From: Brevundimonas sp. M20
GTDB taxonomy: Bacteria > Pseudomonadota > Alphaproteobacteria > Caulobacterales > Caulobacteraceae
Assembly (NCBI RefSeq): GCF_006547065.1
Contig: NZ_CP041243.1
Span: 2,061,001 to 2,125,000, forward strand
Direction: 5' to 3'
Length of the DNA stretch: 64,000 nt
Shown here: positions 17,035 to 55,924 of the stretch, one piece after another
Layout: every line of letters starts with the position of its first letter
Position numbering within the stretch: position 1 is the first letter of the stretch
Translations under genes and position numbers: made by a program
Notes under the pieces: generated by a model
Told to the model about the DNA's origin: nothing
The model's input: the letters and a program-made list of their open reading frames with translations, nothing else
Database searches by the model: none

Positions 17035-17983
17035 AGCCGCAGCGGACGGAACAGCGGCCTGGCCGCCGCCTGCGCTGGATCCGGCGGGACCCTTCGCCGA
17101 GCCGCTGAACACCCTGTCATGGGTCCTGTTCGCCATGGCCGGCTCGGTCTTGCTGATCGTGCTGGCGGCGCTGGGCGTCGCGCTGTTCGGCCCCCGACGC
17201 TGGCGCGAGCGGCTGGGCGGGCGCAAGCTTGTCTGGATCGGCGGTTTCGCCTTCCCCGTCGTGGTCCTGACCGCCCTGCTCATCTACGGTCTCGGCCTGA
17301 CCAGTCACCTGACGCAGGAGCCCGGTCCCGACGAAATGCGCGTGCGTGTCACCGGCGAGATGTGGTGGTGGCGCATCGCCTATCTGGACGGCGAAGGTCG
17401 TGAAGCCTTCCAGGACGCCAACGAACTGCACATCCCCACGGGCCGTCCCGTGGTGATCGAACTGGACTCCGCCGACGTCATTCACAGCTTCTGGGTTCCG
17501 CGTCTGTCGGGAAAGGTCGACATGATCCCCGGACGCCGCAACCTGATCCGGATTCAGGCCGACGCCCCCGGAGCCTATGGCGGACAGTGTGCTGAATACT
17601 GCGGCGGGCCGCACGCCCTGATGGGCTTTGTCGTGGTGGCGCATGAGCCGACGGCCTACGCGGCATGGCGCGCCCGGCAAACCGCGCCCTCTCCCGCAGC
17701 CCTTCAGCCGACCATCGGCTCACAGGTCTTCGCCCGCGCCGGATGCGGCGCCTGCCACAGTGTCGCCGGCACGGCCTTCAACGGTCAGGCTGGCCCTGAC
17801 CTCAGCCACGTCGGCTCACGGCGCACGCTCGGCGCGGGCATTCTTCCCAACAACCAGGGCACGATGGCGGGCTGGATTTCGGACAGCCAGTCGATCAAGC
17901 CCGGCAACCGCATGCCGGCCTATCCCGTGCTCACCGGCGAGGAACTGCGCGAGGTTTCCGGCTGGCTCGAGAGCCTGAAGTGA
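17027..17983 (+). CDS. coxB: cytochrome c oxidase subunit II with fused cytochrome c (caa3 type)
   Basis: A 318-residue protein. Two N-terminal membrane helices (about residues 25-50 and 68-92) are followed by the cupredoxin domain with a complete CuA site: H153 in DVIHSFWVP, then C188, C192, H196 and M199 in CAEYCGGPHALMG. A class I cytochrome c domain is fused at the C-terminus with C240-x2-C243-H244 and the Met segment GNRMPAYPVLTGEEL. This fusion defines caa3-type oxidases. It overlaps both neighbours, upstream by 8 bp and downstream as GTGA. The protein lacks a cleavable signal peptide before the first helix. Confidence 0.95.
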   Translation: MTRAAADGTAAWPPPALDPAGPFAEPLNTLSWVLFAMAGSVLLIVLAALGVALFGPRRWRERLGGRKLVWIGGFAFPVVVLTALLIYGLGLTSHLTQEPGPDEMRVRVTGEMWWWRIAYLDGEGREAFQDANELHIPTGRPVVIELDSADVIHSFWVPRLSGKVDMIPGRRNLIRIQADAPGAYGGQCAEYCGGPHALMGFVVVAHEPTAYAAWRARQTAPSPAALQPTIGSQVFARAGCGACHSVAGTAFNGQAGPDLSHVGSRRTLGAGILPNNQGTMAGWISDSQSIKPGNRMPAYPVLTGEELREVSGWLESLK

Positions 17984-20532
17984 GCCGCGAGTTCGAGAGG
18001 GAAACGGGGTTCGACACCACCCTGTACGAGCAATTCCCCACCACCGGGCCTCGTCCGGAAGGCGAGGTCGAGGAACTGGAACGCATCTGGTGCCGCCCTA
18101 AAGGCTGGCAGTGGATCACCGCGATCAACAACAATTTCGTCGGCGTCTACTATGTGGGCGCCGCCATGTTGTTCTTTGTACTGGCGGGCGTCCTTGCGGT
18201 CCTGATGCGGACCCAGCTGGCCGTGCCGATGGCGGGCGTCCTTCCGGCCGAGACCTACAACCAGATCTTCACCGTGCACGGCACGATGATGATGTTCCTG
18301 TTCGCCGTTCCCGCCGTCGAGGCGCTGGCGGTGCTGCTTCTGCCCCAGATGCTGGGCGCGCGGGACCTGCCCTTCCCGCGCCTCAGCGCCTACGCCTTCT
18401 GGGCCTATCTGATTGGCGGACTGGCCTTCTTCTGCTCCCTGTTCTTCGGTCTCGCTCCGAACGGCGGCTGGTTCATGTACCCGCCGCTCAGTTCGACCGC
18501 CTTCTCGCCCGGGATCAACGCTGACTTCTGGCTCCTTGGTATCGGCTTCATCGAGATTTCCGCCATCGCCGGAGCCGTCGAGATCATTGTCGGCGTGCTG
18601 CGCAACCGCGCGCCCGGCATGACGCTGGACAAGCTGCCCATCTTCGCCTGGGCCATGCTGATCTTCGCCGGGATGATCATCATCGCCTTCCCGTCGGTGA
18701 TCCTCGCCACCACCCTGATGGAGCTGGAGCGGGTCTTCGGCTGGCCGTTCTTCGACCCGCTCAAGGGCGGAGACCCGATGCTGTGGCAGCACCTGTTCTG
18801 GTTCTTCGGCCACCCCGAGGTCTACATCATCTTCCTGCCCGCCGCAGGGGCCATGTCGACCATGATTCCGGCTATCGCGCGCACGCCGCTGGTCGGCCAC
18901 AACGCCGTGGTTCTGGCCATGCTGGCCACCGGCTTCATCAGTTTCGGCGTGTGGGCGCACCACATGTTCACCACCGGCATGCCGACCATCTCGACCAGCT
19001 ATTTCTCGTCGGCGTCAATGGCAGTGTCGGTGCCCGCGGGCATCCAGGTCTTCGCCTGGATCGCCACCATCGCGGCGGGCAAGATGCGCTTCACCACCTC
19101 CGGCCTGTTCGTCACCGGCGCCATCATCACCTTCGTCATGGGCGGTCTGACCGGGGTGATGGTCGCCATGGTCCCGTTCGACTGGCAGGCCCACGACAGC
19201 TACTTCATCGTCGCCCACCTGCACTATGTGCTGATCGGCGGGATGGTCTTCCCCTTCTTCGCCGCCATCTACTACTGGCTGCCCATGTCGTCGACACGCC
19301 CGCTCAGCGAGCGGATGGGCAAGTGGGTGTTCTGGCTGATGTTCACGGGCATGCACGTGACCTTCCTGCCCATGCACCTCAGCGGGTTGATGGCCATGCC
19401 GCGCCGCGTCTTCACCTATCTTCCCGGACGTGGGCTGGAGCTGCCCAACCTGATCTCCAGCATCGGCACGGCGATCACGGCGCTGGGCGTCCTCCTCTGG
19501 ATCATCGACATGATCCGCAACTTCCGCCCCTTCGGCGACAAGGACAGCGGCGATATCCACGGCTCACCCGGGCTCGAATGGCTGCCGACCGGCCTCTACT
19601 CGGTCCGCTCGATTCCGGTCGTGAAAAGCCTCTATCCCCTGTGGGAGCAGAAGAACCTCGCCCGCGACGTCGAAGCCGGACGCTACTTCCTGCCGAACGC
19701 TCCAACCGGCGCGCGGGAGACCCTGGTCACCTCCACCCTCAACGCCGAGCCGCAATACCTGCAACGGATGCCGTCGCCCTCCCCCTGGCATGTCTGGGCG
19801 GCGATCTTCACGGCGGGTCTATTCCTGCTGCTGACCGTGCAGGCCTATGTCGCATCGGCCATCAGCGGCGTTCTGGCCGTCTGGTGCATCATGCACTGGT
19901 GCTGGATGCTGGATCGCCCGCGCATCGCCGAGACGGTCGATATCGGCGGCGGCGTTCGAGTGCCGACCTATATGAGCGGCCCGTCCAGCCACGGCTGGTG
20001 GGCCATGGTCATCACCCTGATCGTGGCCGGCATGATCGCTCTGCTGGCGGGCTTCAGCTACGTCTTCCTGTGGAGCCGCAACCCGCAGGACTGGATCGCC
20101 CCTCCGCCGGCGACGGGTCTCTACCTTACCCTTGGCGCCAACCTCATCGGAGCCCTCCTCGCCTGGCTGTCGTGCAGGGTGCTGTCACTGGACCGCCCGC
20201 GCAGCCCGGTGATCGCGACCCTGCTGATGCTGCTGGCGACCGCCGCCCTGGGCGCGGCGTGGTGGACCGATCTGAACGGCTGGATCGACACCGGTCTCAA
20301 GGCCTCGGCGACGGGTCAGGGCGCCACGGTCTTCGCCCTGTTGTCCTGGCACGGCTTCTTCATGGGGATCGTCGCCCTGATGGCGCTGTACGCGGTTTTG
20401 CGACTGCTGTTCGGCCACGTCGAGGCGCGTCGCCCCTCAACCTTCCAGTTGATCGCCCTGTTCCTCACCTACTCCGCCAGTCAGGGCGCGTTTTCCGCCG
20501 CCCTCACCGCCCTCTTCCCGGGCGCGCCATGA
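17980..20532 (+). CDS. cytochrome c oxidase subunit I fused to subunit III
   Basis: An 850-residue polytopic protein. The subunit I part (about residues 40-580) has every heme/copper ligand: H100 in FTVHGTMMMF and H415 for heme a, H413 for heme a3, and H278 with cross-linked Y282 (FGHPEVY), H327 and H328 for CuB. The C-terminal part (about residues 600-850) adds further helices, including HGWWAMVITLIVAGMIALLAG and LLSWHGFFMGIVALMALYA, which correspond to a subunit III-like domain. No separate subunit III gene is present. It starts at GTG 17980, overlapping coxB, and ends overlapping the next gene as ATGA. Confidence 0.93.
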   Translation: MSREFERETGFDTTLYEQFPTTGPRPEGEVEELERIWCRPKGWQWITAINNNFVGVYYVGAAMLFFVLAGVLAVLMRTQLAVPMAGVLPAETYNQIFTVHGTMMMFLFAVPAVEALAVLLLPQMLGARDLPFPRLSAYAFWAYLIGGLAFFCSLFFGLAPNGGWFMYPPLSSTAFSPGINADFWLLGIGFIEISAIAGAVEIIVGVLRNRAPGMTLDKLPIFAWAMLIFAGMIIIAFPSVILATTLMELERVFGWPFFDPLKGGDPMLWQHLFWFFGHPEVYIIFLPAAGAMSTMIPAIARTPLVGHNAVVLAMLATGFISFGVWAHHMFTTGMPTISTSYFSSASMAVSVPAGIQVFAWIATIAAGKMRFTTSGLFVTGAIITFVMGGLTGVMVAMVPFDWQAHDSYFIVAHLHYVLIGGMVFPFFAAIYYWLPMSSTRPLSERMGKWVFWLMFTGMHVTFLPMHLSGLMAMPRRVFTYLPGRGLELPNLISSIGTAITALGVLLWIIDMIRNFRPFGDKDSGDIHGSPGLEWLPTGLYSVRSIPVVKSLYPLWEQKNLARDVEAGRYFLPNAPTGARETLVTSTLNAEPQYLQRMPSPSPWHVWAAIFTAGLFLLLTVQAYVASAISGVLAVWCIMHWCWMLDRPRIAETVDIGGGVRVPTYMSGPSSHGWWAMVITLIVAGMIALLAGFSYVFLWSRNPQDWIAPPPATGLYLTLGANLIGALLAWLSCRVLSLDRPRSPVIATLLMLLATAALGAAWWTDLNGWIDTGLKASATGQGATVFALLSWHGFFMGIVALMALYAVLRLLFGHVEARRPSTFQLIALFLTYSASQGAFSAALTALFPGAP

Positions 20533-20828
20533 AGACCTGGATCTGGATGACCGGCGGCCTGATTGTGTGGGCCTTTCACTTCATCGGCGTCTATCTGATC
20601 TCCAGCGTCGCCGACGTCGTAGCGACGGCCGACGATGTACGCTGGCGCATGGCCGGCCTGGCCTTCAGCGGGGGCTGCGCCCTGCTTGCCGCAACGCTGC
20701 TATGGGCGGCCGTCACACAGTTGCGCCGCCGGGGCTCCGGATTTTCAGACCAGGTCTCGGCCTTCGGCTCCGCCGTTTCCCTGATCGCCGTTGCATGGCA
20801 GGCGCTGCCGACCGTGATCGGGCACTGA
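20529..20828 (+). CDS. small membrane protein of the caa3 oxidase operon
   Basis: A 99-residue protein with three hydrophobic segments (MKTWIWMTGGLIVWAFHFIG, AGLAFSGGCALLAATLLWAA and AVSLIAVAWQALPTVI). It overlaps the subunit I/III gene by ATGA and is the last gene of the operon. It could be a small oxidase subunit or an assembly protein; no family was recognised with confidence. His17 in the first helix is a possible metal or proton-path residue, which is speculative. Confidence 0.75.
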   Translation: MKTWIWMTGGLIVWAFHFIGVYLISSVADVVATADDVRWRMAGLAFSGGCALLAATLLWAAVTQLRRRGSGFSDQVSAFGSAVSLIAVAWQALPTVIGH

Positions 20829-21122: not shown

Positions 21123-21989
21123 ATGAGTAATCTGGCCGGCAAGGCCTATGCCATGAATGTCGTGACGCCCATGCGGCCGGGCGCGACGTGGATCAACACC
21201 TTCATCTTCATGCTCTCGCGCGCCCTGCCGGGCACCCTCAGCGGCCTGCTCGGGCTCGGCTTCATCCATTTCGCGCGCTGGGTGATGATCCGCCGCGATC
21301 AGTGGCCGCAGTTGGGCCAGCCCCCGGCGAAGCTGTCCAACGACTACATGCTGTTCTGCAGCAACTTCAACGGCACCTGGGACCAGTACATCGACGCCTT
21401 CGCCGACGGGATTCCGGGCGGGCTGGACCTGTTCTGGTATTCGAGCACCAAATACCCCAACTCGATCCCGGTCACCCCATTCAAGAACTACATCCGCGCC
21501 AATCAGGTCGACACCAACTATTATTATAACGCGACGCCGGGCAGCGGGCAGCGGGATATCAAGCTGGCGCTGAAGCTGTTGCACGATCTGGCCGCGGTCG
21601 CCGCGAAGGCCGGAGGGCTGAGCGACGCCGAGCTGGCCTCGGCGTTCGAACGGCTGCTGATCGCCAATCAGGGCGGGCTGGGCTCGCCGGGCTACGCCCC
21701 GATCGCGAGCTGTGACACCGCCGCCGCTGACCGCAACCGCGCCGATGCCGAGCTGGGTCTGTGGGGCGAGGGCGGCACCGGTCCGATCAAGGCCGAGCGC
21801 ACCCTGGAACCGATCGCGCAGGATGTCGTCCTCGCGTCCAGCGCGAACGAGGACGAGGCCGTCAGGGCCGAGGTCAGGGCCGCCGTCGCCGCCGCTCTCA
21901 ACATTACGCCGAACGCCGGCGAACCGCCCCATGCGCCGGAGCCGCCGCCGGAAACGCCCGTCCGGAAGGAGGAAAGAGCCGATGGCTAA
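21123..21989 (+). CDS. uncharacterised conserved protein, first gene of DyP/P450 operon
   Basis: A 288-residue protein without a classical signal peptide. Residues about 20-55 are hydrophobic and end in GLGFIHFARWVMI. A well-formed central block follows: MLFCSNFNGTWDQYIDAFAD, IPGGLDLFWYSSTKYP, then YIRANQVDTNYYYNATPGSG. The last 40 residues are Pro/Glu-rich. The block resembles a ferredoxin-like alpha/beta unit of the kind found in DyP and related oxidases, which is inference. No catalytic motif is evident. GGGGGGTGGATCA precedes ATG 21123. The stop overlaps the next gene's start by 8 bp. Such proteins appear to be conserved companions of peroxidases, but I cannot name the family. Confidence 0.8.
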   Translation: MSNLAGKAYAMNVVTPMRPGATWINTFIFMLSRALPGTLSGLLGLGFIHFARWVMIRRDQWPQLGQPPAKLSNDYMLFCSNFNGTWDQYIDAFADGIPGGLDLFWYSSTKYPNSIPVTPFKNYIRANQVDTNYYYNATPGSGQRDIKLALKLLHDLAAVAAKAGGLSDAELASAFERLLIANQGGLGSPGYAPIASCDTAAADRNRADAELGLWGEGGTGPIKAERTLEPIAQDVVLASSANEDEAVRAEVRAAVAAALNITPNAGEPPHAPEPPPETPVRKEERADG

Positions 21990-23004
21990 TATCGACGTCA
22001 GCACCTACTTCTTCACGGCGGCCGTGCCGGTGTGCAACGAGGGGGTTGTCGAGCATCGCAGCCTGACGGGCGCGAAGGGCGTGATCAAAAGCTCGCCCAT
22101 CCACATCGTGCGCGAGATCCTCGAGACCCTGCCCACGGCGCTGCAATCCCATGCGACCGAGGAGATCGGGCTGAACAGCCCTTTCTCCCGCAATCTGCGC
22201 ACCCATTTCACGCGCTTCGTGATCCTCGATCAGCCGAACTTCAACGGCCGCGACCACAGCAATGCGCTGGTCAACGCGGTGATGAAGGTCGACCTGCTCG
22301 CCGCCCAGCCGGTGGATCAGATCACCTGCCCCTACATCTTCTGGACCATCGATTTCGACCTGCCCGACCCCGCCGGCGCCGGCGAGCCGCGCCGCTATTT
22401 CGAGGAGCTGTGGGGCCAGATGGAGCCCGAGCTGCGGTCGATCTTCCAGTACTGCTACGGCTTCGATCAGGTGAAGGACGCGGCGAGTTTCGCGACCTAT
22501 ATCCTGCGGTGCCAGATCGAAACGACGATGCCGTTCCACGATTACTGGTACATCCCGCCGAAGCTGAGCCAGATATCCATCCCCGGACTGGCGCTGATCC
22601 CGGGCATCGGCGCGCTGATGCTGCTGGGGTCGCTGATCGCGGGCTTCCTGCGCTGGACCGGCTGGCGCTGGGCGGCGGATTTCGTCGGGTGGAGCGGCTG
22701 GACCTGGGCCCCTTGGGCCGGGCTGGGGGTGCTGATCCTCGGCCTCATCATCGACTATTACTGGGTGATGGCGAAGGGCCGGAAGCCCTACCCCGCCTCC
22801 CCCGGCGCGGATCTGCGGAATGTGCTGAAGGCGCTGTACCTCCAGCAGGTCTTCACCCGCTTCGCCACGGCGCAGCAGCGCCGGGACCGGACAAAATGGG
22901 GCGCCGAGTTCCGCACCTTTCTGACCGCCACCCGACCCGGCGACCTGGACGGGCCCACCCAGTCGCCCGGCGTGATCCGCAGCCAGCCGGGAGATGCGGC
23001 ATGA
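21982..23004 (+). CDS. uncharacterised membrane protein, second gene of DyP/P450 operon
   Basis: A 340-residue protein with a strong AAGGAGGAAAG ribosome site. The N-terminal 210 residues are soluble and carry LRTHFTRFVILDQPNFNGRD and CPYIFWTIDFDLPDP, an H-F-x-R-F/W-V-hydrophobic then F-N-G pattern also seen in the preceding protein. A central segment holds two adjacent membrane helices (about residues 197-222 and 237-258), followed by a basic C-terminal tail (QQVFTRFATAQQRRDRTKW). The topology puts both large parts on the same side, presumably cytosolic. It overlaps the peroxidase gene by 4 bp. No enzymatic motif is recognised. Confidence 0.8.
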   Translation: MANIDVSTYFFTAAVPVCNEGVVEHRSLTGAKGVIKSSPIHIVREILETLPTALQSHATEEIGLNSPFSRNLRTHFTRFVILDQPNFNGRDHSNALVNAVMKVDLLAAQPVDQITCPYIFWTIDFDLPDPAGAGEPRRYFEELWGQMEPELRSIFQYCYGFDQVKDAASFATYILRCQIETTMPFHDYWYIPPKLSQISIPGLALIPGIGALMLLGSLIAGFLRWTGWRWAADFVGWSGWTWAPWAGLGVLILGLIIDYYWVMAKGRKPYPASPGADLRNVLKALYLQQVFTRFATAQQRRDRTKWGAEFRTFLTATRPGDLDGPTQSPGVIRSQPGDAA

Positions 23005-24719
23005 CCAACGCCACCAACACGCCGTCCTCCGCCACCCTGCTCGACCTCGCCGACATTCAGGGCGGGATTCTGCGGACCTACGGCGACGGCTTCCCCAAGG
23101 GGCGAAACTTCTATCTGACCGTGCGCGACGCCCGAAAAGGCCGCGCCTTTGTCGAGGCCTTGCTGCCGAAGATCACCACCGCCGCGCGCTGGAAGGACCC
23201 GAAGCGAGACGAGCCGCTGCTGCGCACGCGCAATCCGCGCGTCAAGGATATCGTCCGCGCGCAGGGCGAGCCCGACTATCCGGGTCGCGTTCAGCTGATG
23301 AAGCCCAAAGTGACGCTCAATATCGGCTTCACCTTCACCGGACTGCTCGCCCTGGGCGTGCCGACCCGCACCTTGCGCGGCATGCCTGACGACTTCATCG
23401 ACGGGATGGAGGCGCGGGCGGCCCTGCTGGGCGACGATCCCTTCCTGGACAAGCGCGACGCGGTATGGCGCAACTCGAAGGGCGACAGGCGCGTCCATAT
23501 CCTGCTGACGCTCTACGCCCAGCAGAACCCCGACGGCACGGCCTGCCCCGAACTGAAAGCCGAGACCGACGCCATCGTCGCGCTCTGCAAGAAATCGAGG
23601 GGCGGGGTCGTTCTGCTCGACGGGGTCGGCCCCGACAACGCGCAATGGCAGGACCTGTCCGCGGTGATGCGGCAGGACGGCGAGAACTGGTGGCCGACCA
23701 ACAAGGAGCATTTCGGCCTGTCAGACGGCTTCGGCGACCCGGTCTTCTCCGGCCAGTTCTCGGGTGAGGCCGAGCAGGTCCGCGTCGCGGGCGGGGGCAA
23801 GCTGGTCTATGACCCGAAGAAGAAGACGTACAAATGGGAGCCGCTGGCGACCGGCGAGTTCCTGCTCGGCTACCCGGACGAGGCGCAGGAAATTCCGGGC
23901 GCGGCGATGCCGATCGCCTTCAGCCGCAACGGCGCCTTCATGGCCTATCGCAAGCTGCACGAGGCCGTCGGAACCTTCAACCGCTACATTGACGAGCAGG
24001 CCGGACGCTACGCCAGGATGTTCCACGTTCCCAAGGCGGAGGCGGTGGAGACGATCAAGGCCAAGATGGTCGGCCGATGGGAGGACGGCGTCCCGCTGAC
24101 CATCGCGCCGACCTACGCCGACTGGCAGCGTTTCCGCGCCGACCTCGACAAGGCGCGGGCGGAGAAGAACAAGGCCAGGCTGGCCGAAATCGCGCTGAAG
24201 TTCACCAACTTCACCTACGCCTCCGATCCGGCGGGATCGAAATGCCCGGTGACCTCGCACCTGCGCCGCGCCAATCCGCGCGACGGACTGGGGCCGACCT
24301 TCACCGCCGATGGCCTGTCAGGTGACGGCAGCGCGATCATCAACCGCCGTCGCATCCTGCGTCGCGGCCTGCCCTATGGTCAGTATGACGCCAACGCCCC
24401 GACCGATGACGGCGACCACGGCATCATCTTCATGGCGATCTGCACCAATCTGTTCCGCCAGTTCGAGTTCGTGCAGCAGCAATGGATGCAGTACGGGCTG
24501 GACTTCAACGCGGGCAGCGACACCTGCCCGGTGATCGGGAACCATCCCAAGGCGGATGAGCCCAAGATGGTGATCCCGGTCGATCCTGAAGTCGGCAAGC
24601 TGCCCTTCATCTGTGACCGCGTTCCGCAACTCGTGGAGCCGCGCGGCGGGGACTATTTCTTCCTGCCCAGCATGACCGCCCTGCGGATGATCGGGATGGG
24701 GATCATCGACCCGACCTGA
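23001..24719 (+). CDS. DyP-type heme peroxidase (long form)
   Basis: A 572-residue peroxidase. It starts with LADIQGGILRTYGDGFPKGRNFY, the usual DyP opening. The signature GXXDG is GLSDG with catalytic D242. The proximal heme ligand is H420 in SHLRRANPRDGLG. The distal Arg region is RRRILRRGLPYG. The length is above the common 300-450 residues and fits the long class of DyPs. There is no Sec or Tat signal, so it should be cytosolic or held at the membrane by its neighbours. DyPs oxidise aromatic or lipid-like substrates with H2O2. It overlaps the upstream gene as ATGA and precedes the P450 by 32 bp. Confidence 0.93.
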   Translation: MTNATNTPSSATLLDLADIQGGILRTYGDGFPKGRNFYLTVRDARKGRAFVEALLPKITTAARWKDPKRDEPLLRTRNPRVKDIVRAQGEPDYPGRVQLMKPKVTLNIGFTFTGLLALGVPTRTLRGMPDDFIDGMEARAALLGDDPFLDKRDAVWRNSKGDRRVHILLTLYAQQNPDGTACPELKAETDAIVALCKKSRGGVVLLDGVGPDNAQWQDLSAVMRQDGENWWPTNKEHFGLSDGFGDPVFSGQFSGEAEQVRVAGGGKLVYDPKKKTYKWEPLATGEFLLGYPDEAQEIPGAAMPIAFSRNGAFMAYRKLHEAVGTFNRYIDEQAGRYARMFHVPKAEAVETIKAKMVGRWEDGVPLTIAPTYADWQRFRADLDKARAEKNKARLAEIALKFTNFTYASDPAGSKCPVTSHLRRANPRDGLGPTFTADGLSGDGSAIINRRRILRRGLPYGQYDANAPTDDGDHGIIFMAICTNLFRQFEFVQQQWMQYGLDFNAGSDTCPVIGNHPKADEPKMVIPVDPEVGKLPFICDRVPQLVEPRGGDYFFLPSMTALRMIGMGIIDPT

Positions 24720-24751
24720 CCCAACAAGGCCCTCCGGAAAAGGCGCGCGCG

Positions 24752-26113
24752 ATGCAATGGCTGTTCAACCTGTCGACCGTGATCTGGCGCCGGCTGATGC
24801 TGCTCGTTCAGGGGCTCCGGGCCCTGCTCTGGCTGATCGCCGCGGGCATCGGCGCAGTGTTCGGCAAGGGCGGGACGATCGCGAGCCGGCTCGGCGCCGC
24901 CATCGGCGGGCCGAAGGGGCAGCGCATGGTGTTCGGGCTGCTGCGGCTGTTCCAGCCCAATCTGGTGCTCCGGCGGCGGATCATCGAGTCCTATCCCAAC
25001 AACGGCATCACCGCGATCGCGACCCGACGGGCCGATGTCATCGACATCCTGAGCCGCGAGGCGGATTTCGGCGTGGTCTACGCCCCGCGCATGGAGATGA
25101 TCACCGCCGGTGAGAACTTCTTTCTCGGGATGCAGGACACCCCTCGCTACACCCGCGATACCTCCAACATGCGGCTTGTGGTGCGGCGCGACGATGTGCC
25201 GGAAATCGTCACCCCCTATGTCTCGACCGCCGCCGCCGGGATCGTCGCCATGGCGCCCGGCGCGATCGACGTGCCTCAAGCCCTGACCCAGCCGGTCGCC
25301 GCCGGACTGCTGGACCACTATTTCGGCACGCCGGGCCCATCGGAGGCGGCGATCGCCGAATGGACCACCCTGCTGTTCTGGTATCTGTTCATCGACCTGC
25401 AGGCCGATCCCGATCTCGATGCGCGCGCCAGAAAGGCGGCGGCGGACTTCCGGGTCTGGATGGACGCCCACATCGCCGAGCGCCGCAAGGCCCCGCACAG
25501 GGATGACGTGCTCGGTCGTTGTCTGGCGATGGGCGAGGCCCGCCTGCCGGGGATGAGTGATCGCGACATCCGCAACAATCTGATCGGACTGTTGATCGGC
25601 GAACTGCCGACGCTTTCCGCAGCCGCCAATCTGGCGCTCGACGAACTGCTGGATCGACCCAAGGCGTTCGCCGCCGCCTGCGCCGCGGCGCGCGCCGACG
25701 ACGATGCGGCGCTGTCCGCCCATGTCTTCGAGGCGCTCCGGTTCCGGCCGCTCAACCCCGTCGTCTATCGCCGCGCGATGAGGGACACCACAATCGCCGC
25801 CGGCGCACTTCGCCGCCGCAGCATCCGCAAGGACAGCATCGTCATGGCGTCGAACCTGTCGGCGATGTTCGATCCGCTGGCGATACCCGATCCCACCCGA
25901 TTCCGCACCGACCGGCCGTGGGAGACCTACATGCTGTGGGGCTACGGCATGCACGTCTGCTTCGGCGCGCACATCAACCGCGCGGTGCTGCCCGCCATGC
26001 TCAAGCCGCTACTCGCCCGCCCCAACCTGCGCCGCGCGGCGGGCCCCGGCGGGCGGATCGACAAGGCGGGCACACCCTTTCCCCAGCACCTGCACCTGGT
26101 GTTCGACACCTGA
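24752..26113 (+). CDS. membrane-anchored cytochrome P450 with atypical I-helix
   Basis: A 453-residue P450. A hydrophobic N-terminal helix (about residues 12-38, LVQGLRALLWLIAAGIGAVF) indicates membrane attachment, which is unusual for bacterial P450s. The heme loop is WGYGMHVCFG with the thiolate C403; Trp replaces the usual first Phe. EALR supplies the ExxR pair, and FDPLAIPDPTRFRTDRP the meander. In the I-helix, GELPTL has Pro where the acidic residue of the acid-alcohol pair normally sits. That substitution is seen in P450s that rearrange peroxides rather than activate O2, so a hydroperoxide-processing role next to the peroxidase is plausible but inferred. Confidence 0.92.
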   Translation: MQWLFNLSTVIWRRLMLLVQGLRALLWLIAAGIGAVFGKGGTIASRLGAAIGGPKGQRMVFGLLRLFQPNLVLRRRIIESYPNNGITAIATRRADVIDILSREADFGVVYAPRMEMITAGENFFLGMQDTPRYTRDTSNMRLVVRRDDVPEIVTPYVSTAAAGIVAMAPGAIDVPQALTQPVAAGLLDHYFGTPGPSEAAIAEWTTLLFWYLFIDLQADPDLDARARKAAADFRVWMDAHIAERRKAPHRDDVLGRCLAMGEARLPGMSDRDIRNNLIGLLIGELPTLSAAANLALDELLDRPKAFAAACAAARADDDAALSAHVFEALRFRPLNPVVYRRAMRDTTIAAGALRRRSIRKDSIVMASNLSAMFDPLAIPDPTRFRTDRPWETYMLWGYGMHVCFGAHINRAVLPAMLKPLLARPNLRRAAGPGGRIDKAGTPFPQHLHLVFDT

Positions 26114-26556: not shown

Positions 26557-26633
26557 CGGAGTGTGGCTCAGCCTGGTAGAGCACTGCGTTCGGGACGCAG
26601 GGGTCGGAGGTTCGAATCCTCTCACTCCGACCA
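26557..26633 (+). tRNA. tRNA-Pro (CGG)
   Basis: A 77-nt cloverleaf with encoded CCA. The acceptor stem CGGAGTG pairs with CACTCCG, and the anticodon stem-loop CTGCG-TTCGGGA-CGCAG gives anticodon CGG. The T-arm is GGAGGTTCGAATCCTC. Confidence 0.96.

Positions 26634-53800: not shown

Positions 53801-55924
<2,124 letters not shown>

Follow-up and report, generated by a model that had tools for sequence, protein, structure and literature searches.

What brings a heme peroxidase and a cytochrome P450 together in one bacterial operon? The question is raised by four consecutive plus-strand genes in a stretch of 64,000 nucleotides from Brevundimonas sp. M20 (contig NZ_CP041243.1, positions 2,061,001 to 2,125,000; hereafter the window), which encode two proteins called here open reading frame 1 (ORF1) and ORF2, a DyP-type peroxidase (DyP) and a P450. 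The original prediction placed the genes at 21123-26113 with overlaps of 8 and 4 bp and a gap of 32 bp, and these coordinates proved exact on re-examination: by the ORF calls, ORF1 and ORF2 overlap by 8 bp and ORF2 and DyP by 4 bp, while the P450 starts 32 bp past the end of DyP (Table 1). The view that the four genes form one functional unit was borne out, as their order is conserved, their divergence is correlated and all their parts are fused in a single polypeptide elsewhere. Together the four proteins probably make up a peroxide-driven set of enzymes at the membrane.

Conservation of the operon

A scan of species genomes with ORF1 yielded 153 relatives, and all locus counts rest on the best 80 of these 153, which come mostly from Alphaproteobacteria, with additional loci from Beta- and Gammaproteobacteria and two from Verrucomicrobia (L028, L079). 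The lack of a conserved neighbourhood in other genomes had been named beforehand as a result that would speak against the operon; gene order and strand are instead kept in all 80 loci as far as the contigs reach. ORF2 lies directly after ORF1 in 80 of 80 loci and DyP comes next in all 76 loci whose contig extends to it, the contigs of the other four ending within or just past ORF2. A P450 of the same family is the next gene in 55 of the 80 loci, in one of them as a remnant of 118 residues. Median gaps are 3 bp between ORF1 and ORF2, -4 bp between ORF2 and DyP and 18 bp between DyP and P450 (n=71, 64 and 51 measurable pairs), and in L006 and L076 a single ORF covers both ORF1 and ORF2. Pairwise distances of all gene pairs correlate across 43 four-gene units, the window included, with r of 0.69-0.91, compared with at most 0.19 in shuffles. 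Co-transcription of the four genes is suggested by the overlaps and the conservation; the simple scans gave no support, with no sigma-70-like promoter detected (0.7 expected) and 5 terminator-like sites vs 3.7 expected.

An adjoining P450 is missing from about a quarter of the loci. DyP stands without it in 21 loci (two of them at contig ends), and in these 21 loci inspection revealed no single gene that replaces it. Of 19 P450-less genomes searched, 5 carry a family-grade P450 elsewhere, at 34-40% identity. The flanking genes differ between loci, and neighbour clusters recur in at most 8 of the 80 loci, with the exception of a gene for a GST-like protein. This gene lies directly after the P450 in 16 of 55 P450 loci vs none of the 21 P450-less loci, and all four of the proteins tested with Pfam contain GST_C domains. 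Its association with P450 loci would suit a reactive product. In L074 the gene is present twice in tandem.

Single-chain fusions

Further evidence that the parts belong together comes from proteins in which they form one chain. A database search with one fused protein gave 200 relatives, and domains were counted among the 120 listed: 69 of these (1,312-1,883 residues) consist of a P450, an ORF1-like domain and a DyP, and 51 (957-1,254 residues) of an ORF1-like domain and a DyP. In full, the order along the chain is P450, ORF2-like stretch, membrane hairpin, ORF1-like domain and DyP, over a total of about 1,300-1,900 residues. The ORF1-like part matches ORF1 with a probability of 98.9 (E 1.8e-17), and the stretch before it, compared as a profile of 90 less similar rows, aligns with that of ORF2 at a probability of 79 (E 1.7e-5); the fusion thus holds the parts of the operon in a different order. 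The N-terminal part was missed by the plain ORF2 hidden Markov model and recovered only by profile-profile comparison. Between the ORF2-like and ORF1-like parts we found exactly two membrane helices in two of four examples and more in the other two. In the databases the fused proteins are named 'cytochrome P450', 'Dyp-type peroxidase family', 'deferrochelatase/peroxidase EfeB', combinations of these, or 'hypothetical protein'.

In a scan of the order to which the window belongs, four long open frames (1,057-1,772 residues) also proved to contain an ORF1-like part. In three Mesorhizobium genomes whose operon lacks the P450, the P450 match falls within open frames of 1,442-1,443 residues. One of these three, the genome of L052, contains a second, fused copy at L119:981-5306 that comprises P450, ORF2-like, ORF1-like and DyP parts.

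Distribution of the module

The occurrence of the module is patchy. Of the 200 genomes scanned in the order, three contain operon-type ORF1, namely that of the window, G151 (L087), where the operon copy is intact, and G034 (L086). In the last of these, at about 4999-6759 of L086, a stop lies inside ORF1 and ORF2 is in two pieces, with the DyP and P450 frames open. Across the phylum the ORF1 family is present in 27 of 398 genomes. Loci were retrieved for 30 of the 34 matches, and in all 30 (corresponding to 27 sites in as many genomes, with that of the window among them) a DyP adjoins the ORF1 family member or is fused to it. The reverse scan of the same 398 genomes detected relatives of the window DyP in 29, which are those 27 and two more; the DyP matches in G362 and G443 have no ORF1-type neighbour within about 1.5 kb.

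Some further loci deserve separate mention. G463 and G484 each contain a second, weaker DyP place. L118:4859-7844, from a genome of the window's genus (G047), has an open DyP frame of 493 residues close to an ORF1-like fragment with two internal stops, which may be a member of the wider family in decay. In L110, L111 and L112 the DyP is preceded by a single ORF1-like frame (258-267 residues), and the short stretches retrieved there show no recognisable pair.

The two heme enzymes

Residue conservation was read from gene calls of the expected length in the 80 loci, the window included, giving 78 rows for ORF1, 69 for ORF2, 72 for DyP and 50 for P450. The window DyP is identified as a DyP-type peroxidase by its profile matches and by the presence of the GXXDG aspartate, the proximal histidine and the distal arginine (Table 1). 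Its match to Pfam Dyp_perox_C (3.9e-5) is over the cut-off (23.9 vs 20 bits), that to DyP_N (7.9e-6) is just under it (26.5 vs 27.5 bits), and that to NCBIfam TIGR01413 (4.6e-23) is also under the cut-off of the model. The nearest solved relative is DrDyP (8re2/8re3, 1.4e-39), whose R348 corresponds to Arg454 when counted in the alignment. In 20 of 72 operon rows the final glycine of GXXDG is changed to alanine. The fused DyP domains have the aspartate in 95 of 96 aligned rows, the other 24 of the 120 listed having a gap at this position. No hydrophobic segment was found in the window DyP, and one such segment is present in 15 of 72 DyP rows.

The P450 of the window matches the Pfam model at 1.1e-8, over the cut-off, as the sole Pfam P450 match in its genome, a single 3.3 Mb contig in which searches with ORF2, with this model and with the Pfam model for the DyP C-terminus gave no further match. 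It is a cytochrome P450 by its conserved residues, with C403, G397, H401, E327 and R330 each present in 50 of 50 operon rows, and the cysteine, the ExxR motif and the heme-loop G-x-x-x-H are kept in all 69 fused P450s. The canonical P450 I-helix reads [AG]Gx[DE]T. At this position, to which the window P450 aligns without gaps to solved P450s, the operon P450s read Gx[ILV]PT: all 50 rows lack the acid-alcohol pair of canonical monooxygenases, with an aliphatic residue for the acid and proline for the threonine, and Pro286-Thr287 is invariant. The nearest solved P450s listed also lack the acid (L or I), yet keep T or S at the proline position. All fused P450s but P0359 have the proline (68 of 69), and their acid position is taken by I, V, G or A; in the fused protein of L085, read by eye, the I-helix has no proline either.

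As a control we used P450 ORFs of the order, chosen as the best Pfam scorers and hence leaning to typical families, in which the I-helix was checked by pattern. AGx[DE]T is present in 27 of 31; of the exceptions, L147 and L148 have Asp-Asn, and in the first L128 ORF and L137 the match probably lies outside the I-helix. A GxxPT pattern appears in two controls, L124, which has the canonical motif as well, and the first L128 ORF. A tree was built from 76 P450 sequences, sampled as 25 of the 50 operon rows, 23 of the 69 fused rows and 28 of the 31 controls, and carries a long-branch warning; in it a 97/82 branch separates the operon and fused rows jointly from the 28 controls. The 25 operon rows form one group (100/99), and P0359 falls outside the fused group. 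Judged by its I-helix, the operon P450 would not be expected to work through the standard O2/NAD(P)H cycle; a hydroperoxide-handling P450 could look like this.

ORF1 and ORF2

Neither ORF1 nor ORF2 matches a Pfam or NCBIfam family at E up to 1, and database searches gave 2371 homologues of ORF1 (E<=0.001) and 886 of ORF2. The ORF1 core carries the motif HFARW ... SN[FY][ND]G[TS]W..Y, which is largely kept in three aligned fused rows. As their profiles match each other with a probability of 81 and intermediate sequences match both, ORF1 and ORF2 are, on profile comparison, distant relatives (paralogues). The membrane protein noted at first sight in the operon turned out to be ORF2, which has two hydrophobic stretches by hydropathy (Table 1) and helices at 200-226 and 240-267 in its predicted structure; at least two hydrophobic segments are present in 57 of 69 ORF2 rows. 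The soluble part shows a marginal resemblance to alpha+beta barrels, and a Foldseek search of the model against the PDB gave a best hit of only E 1.4. ORF1 of the window has no hydrophobic segment, and 21 of 78 ORF1 rows have one.

The idea that ORF1 and ORF2 are detached halves of a DyP barrel was unsupported by profile comparison (hhalign probability under 1), and a comparison of the ORF1 profile with P450 was likewise without a match (under 1). Two ORF2 homologues, P0190 and P0134, probably reflect naming or contamination errors, as one carries the name pimeloyl-ACP methyl ester carboxylesterase and the other is assigned to Nostoc sp. 3335mG.

Comparison with known systems

The pairing of a peroxidase with a P450 had been likened to the fungal Ppo proteins, which join a cyclooxygenase-like dioxygenase to a P450 (PMC9579011, PMC4420034, as far as these accounts go). 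The analogy stands for the layout and perhaps for the P450 chemistry: Ppo proteins and linoleate diol synthases (LDS) are described as having a heme peroxidase-type domain and a non-classical P450 in tandem in one chain, and peroxidase and P450 likewise share a chain in the 69 fused proteins and a unit in the window operon. It fails for the peroxidase, since the operon enzyme matches DyP families only and thus belongs to another superfamily than the cyclooxygenase-like N-terminal domain, which puts the module outside Ppo and LDS. In addition, the sections of PMC9579011 on which we draw mention neither an ORF1/ORF2-type domain nor a membrane hairpin. The module would at most resemble the Ppo plan.

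Two groups of P450s invite comparison at the I-helix. CYP152 peroxygenases (P450 BS-beta, SP-alpha, OleT), which use H2O2, are described in PMC5818669 as carrying Arg-Pro at the acid-alcohol place, and thus share with the operon P450s the proline for threonine and the missing acid. The arginine is replaced by Leu, Ile or Val in the operon P450s, which places them outside CYP152, and no CYP152 is among the 60 listed of 66 solved relatives of the window P450. To our knowledge no DyP partner is known for CYP152, nor for the CYP74 clan. The CYP74 hydroperoxide P450s work without O2 or a redox partner and, by the description in PMC10813956, which lists a member from Methylobacterium nodulans, are alike in having no canonical O2-activating I-helix site.

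On the peroxidase side, class C/D (class V) DyPs such as DrDyP (8re2) have the same aspartate, distal arginine and proximal histidine according to the account in PMC10820274. They differ in that the window DyP exceeds the DrDyP chain of 442 residues by about 130 and that nearly all its relatives in the phylum scan occur with or in ORF1-type proteins. The physiological role and biological substrates of DyPs remain unclear in that account (PMC10820274), and a conserved module of DyP, membrane scaffold and unusual P450 makes the native role directly testable, whether on the four genes or on one fused gene. The module also adds two families without a Pfam or NCBIfam model, for which the databases contain 2,371 and 886 relatives, and hints that bacteria may have their own version of the oxylipin chemistry of fungi and plants. 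No description of a DyP-P450 fusion or operon was found in titles and abstracts of the open-access literature, a search that leaves most subscription papers and all bioRxiv preprints outside.

Proposed mechanism and alternatives

The reading we prefer, at evenly balanced confidence, is that the operon encodes one membrane-bound, cytoplasm-facing complex in which DyP works jointly with a P450 that uses peroxide or a hydroperoxide. We infer that ORF2, with its hairpin, and its distant paralogue ORF1 form a paired alpha+beta-barrel scaffold; this would hold DyP at the membrane, and the P450, where present, would dock on it as well. DyP may then oxidise a membrane-soluble substrate with peroxide, and the P450, which would take its oxygen from H2O2 or an organic hydroperoxide and not from O2 plus NAD(P)H, could finish or rearrange the DyP product. 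A lipid or terpenoid as the substrate is a guess. Two of the observations carry a caveat: distance correlations of r 0.69-0.91 are also expected from vertical inheritance alone, and the contrast of 16/55 vs 0/21 for the GST-like gene is inflated by the shared ancestry of the loci. Only tentatively do we extend the proposal to a new bacterial oxidative machine with an origin independent of fungal Ppo, in which DyP and a peroxide-only P450 on a paralogous two-barrel membrane scaffold would pass the substrate between their hemes and yield a signalling or membrane-modifying lipid or isoprenoid product. If true, a whole group of bacterial DyPs would gain a native partner and a route to substrate.

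Both heme sites would also suit a membrane peroxide defence, in which DyP and P450 destroy H2O2 or lipid hydroperoxides of the membrane and the GST-like protein, encoded as a fifth gene in 16 of 55 P450 loci, clears electrophiles. We consider this unlikely, as the distribution of operon-type ORF1 in the order (3 genomes in 200) is far too patchy to resemble a general stress defence, and apart from the GST-like gene no neighbour cluster exceeds 8 of 80 loci. A Ppo-like relay, in which DyP would dioxygenate a lipid or terpenoid to a hydroperoxide that the P450 then isomerises or cleaves, appears slightly less probable again. It draws on the similar one-chain layout of heme peroxidase-type domain and P450 in fungal Ppo (PMC9579011, for the layout described there), on the lack of the O2-activating pair in the operon P450 and on the independence of CYP74 P450s from O2 and redox partners (PMC10813956, likewise). 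Against it, the Ppo/LDS domains are assigned to the peroxidase-cyclooxygenase line (PMC4420034) and DyP to an alpha+beta barrel family (PMC4835899), as stated in these sources; DyP occurs without a P450 at many loci, and its role as a dioxygenase is a postulate.

The P450 could instead be an ordinary NAD(P)H/O2 enzyme with an unusual I-helix that is merely co-regulated with a DyP having its own task. Some working P450s do lack the I-helix threonine, and ferredoxin-type frames are present elsewhere in the genome, yet we regard this as very unlikely given that the P450 is physically fused to DyP in other bacteria, that Pro286-Thr287 is invariant in the operon rows and that no candidate redox-partner cluster is shared by more than 8 of the 80 loci (the family scan being made on the GST-like cluster only). 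Chance proximity of four unrelated genes on one transcript, for which we found no supporting point, is practically ruled out by the gene order conserved across classes and in a second phylum, by the fusions and by the two-way co-occurrence of the ORF1 family and DyP.

Features of the operon and the window

Table 1. Positions of the operon genes and their conserved elements in the window, with the additional gene found at other loci.
Feature	Position	Strand	Description
ORF1	21123..21989	+	288 aa; DyP-partner family without earlier description; conserved core, residues 1-206
ORF2	21982..23004	+	340 aa; distant paralogue of ORF1 by profile comparison, with two-helix membrane hairpin
ORF2 membrane hairpin, residues 205-264	22594..22773	+	two hydrophobic segments, 205-223 and 246-264 (hydropathy)
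DyP-type heme peroxidase	23001..24719	+	572 aa; profile and solved-structure matches
DyP Asp242, GXXDG motif	23724..23726	+	D in 71/72 operon rows, X in the remaining row
DyP His420, expected proximal heme ligand	24258..24260	+	72/72 operon rows, 120/120 fused proteins listed
DyP Arg454, expected distal arginine	24360..24362	+	72/72 operon rows, 120/120 fused proteins listed
Cytochrome P450	24752..26113	+	453 aa; Pfam P450 match
P450 N-terminal hydrophobic segment, residues 15-33	24794..24850	+	hydropathy; such a segment in 31/50 rows
P450 I-helix G283-E-L-P286-T287	25598..25612	+	acid-alcohol pair replaced
P450 Cys403, heme thiolate ligand	25958..25960	+	50/50 operon rows, 69/69 fused
GST-like fifth gene	just after P450		~260 aa; L007, L008, L016, L017, L046, L050, L055, L057, L059, L062, L071, L072, L074, L078, L080, L081

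An 850-aa protein and a small membrane protein (17980-20828) are encoded 294 bp upstream of the operon, the former resembling by eye fused cytochrome c oxidase subunits I and III. ARAGORN reported a 92-base tRNA-Pro at 55045-55136 on the minus strand, inside a long plus-strand ORF (54062-55924); this is probably a false call, because a tRNA-Pro with the same anticodon is present at 26557-26633.

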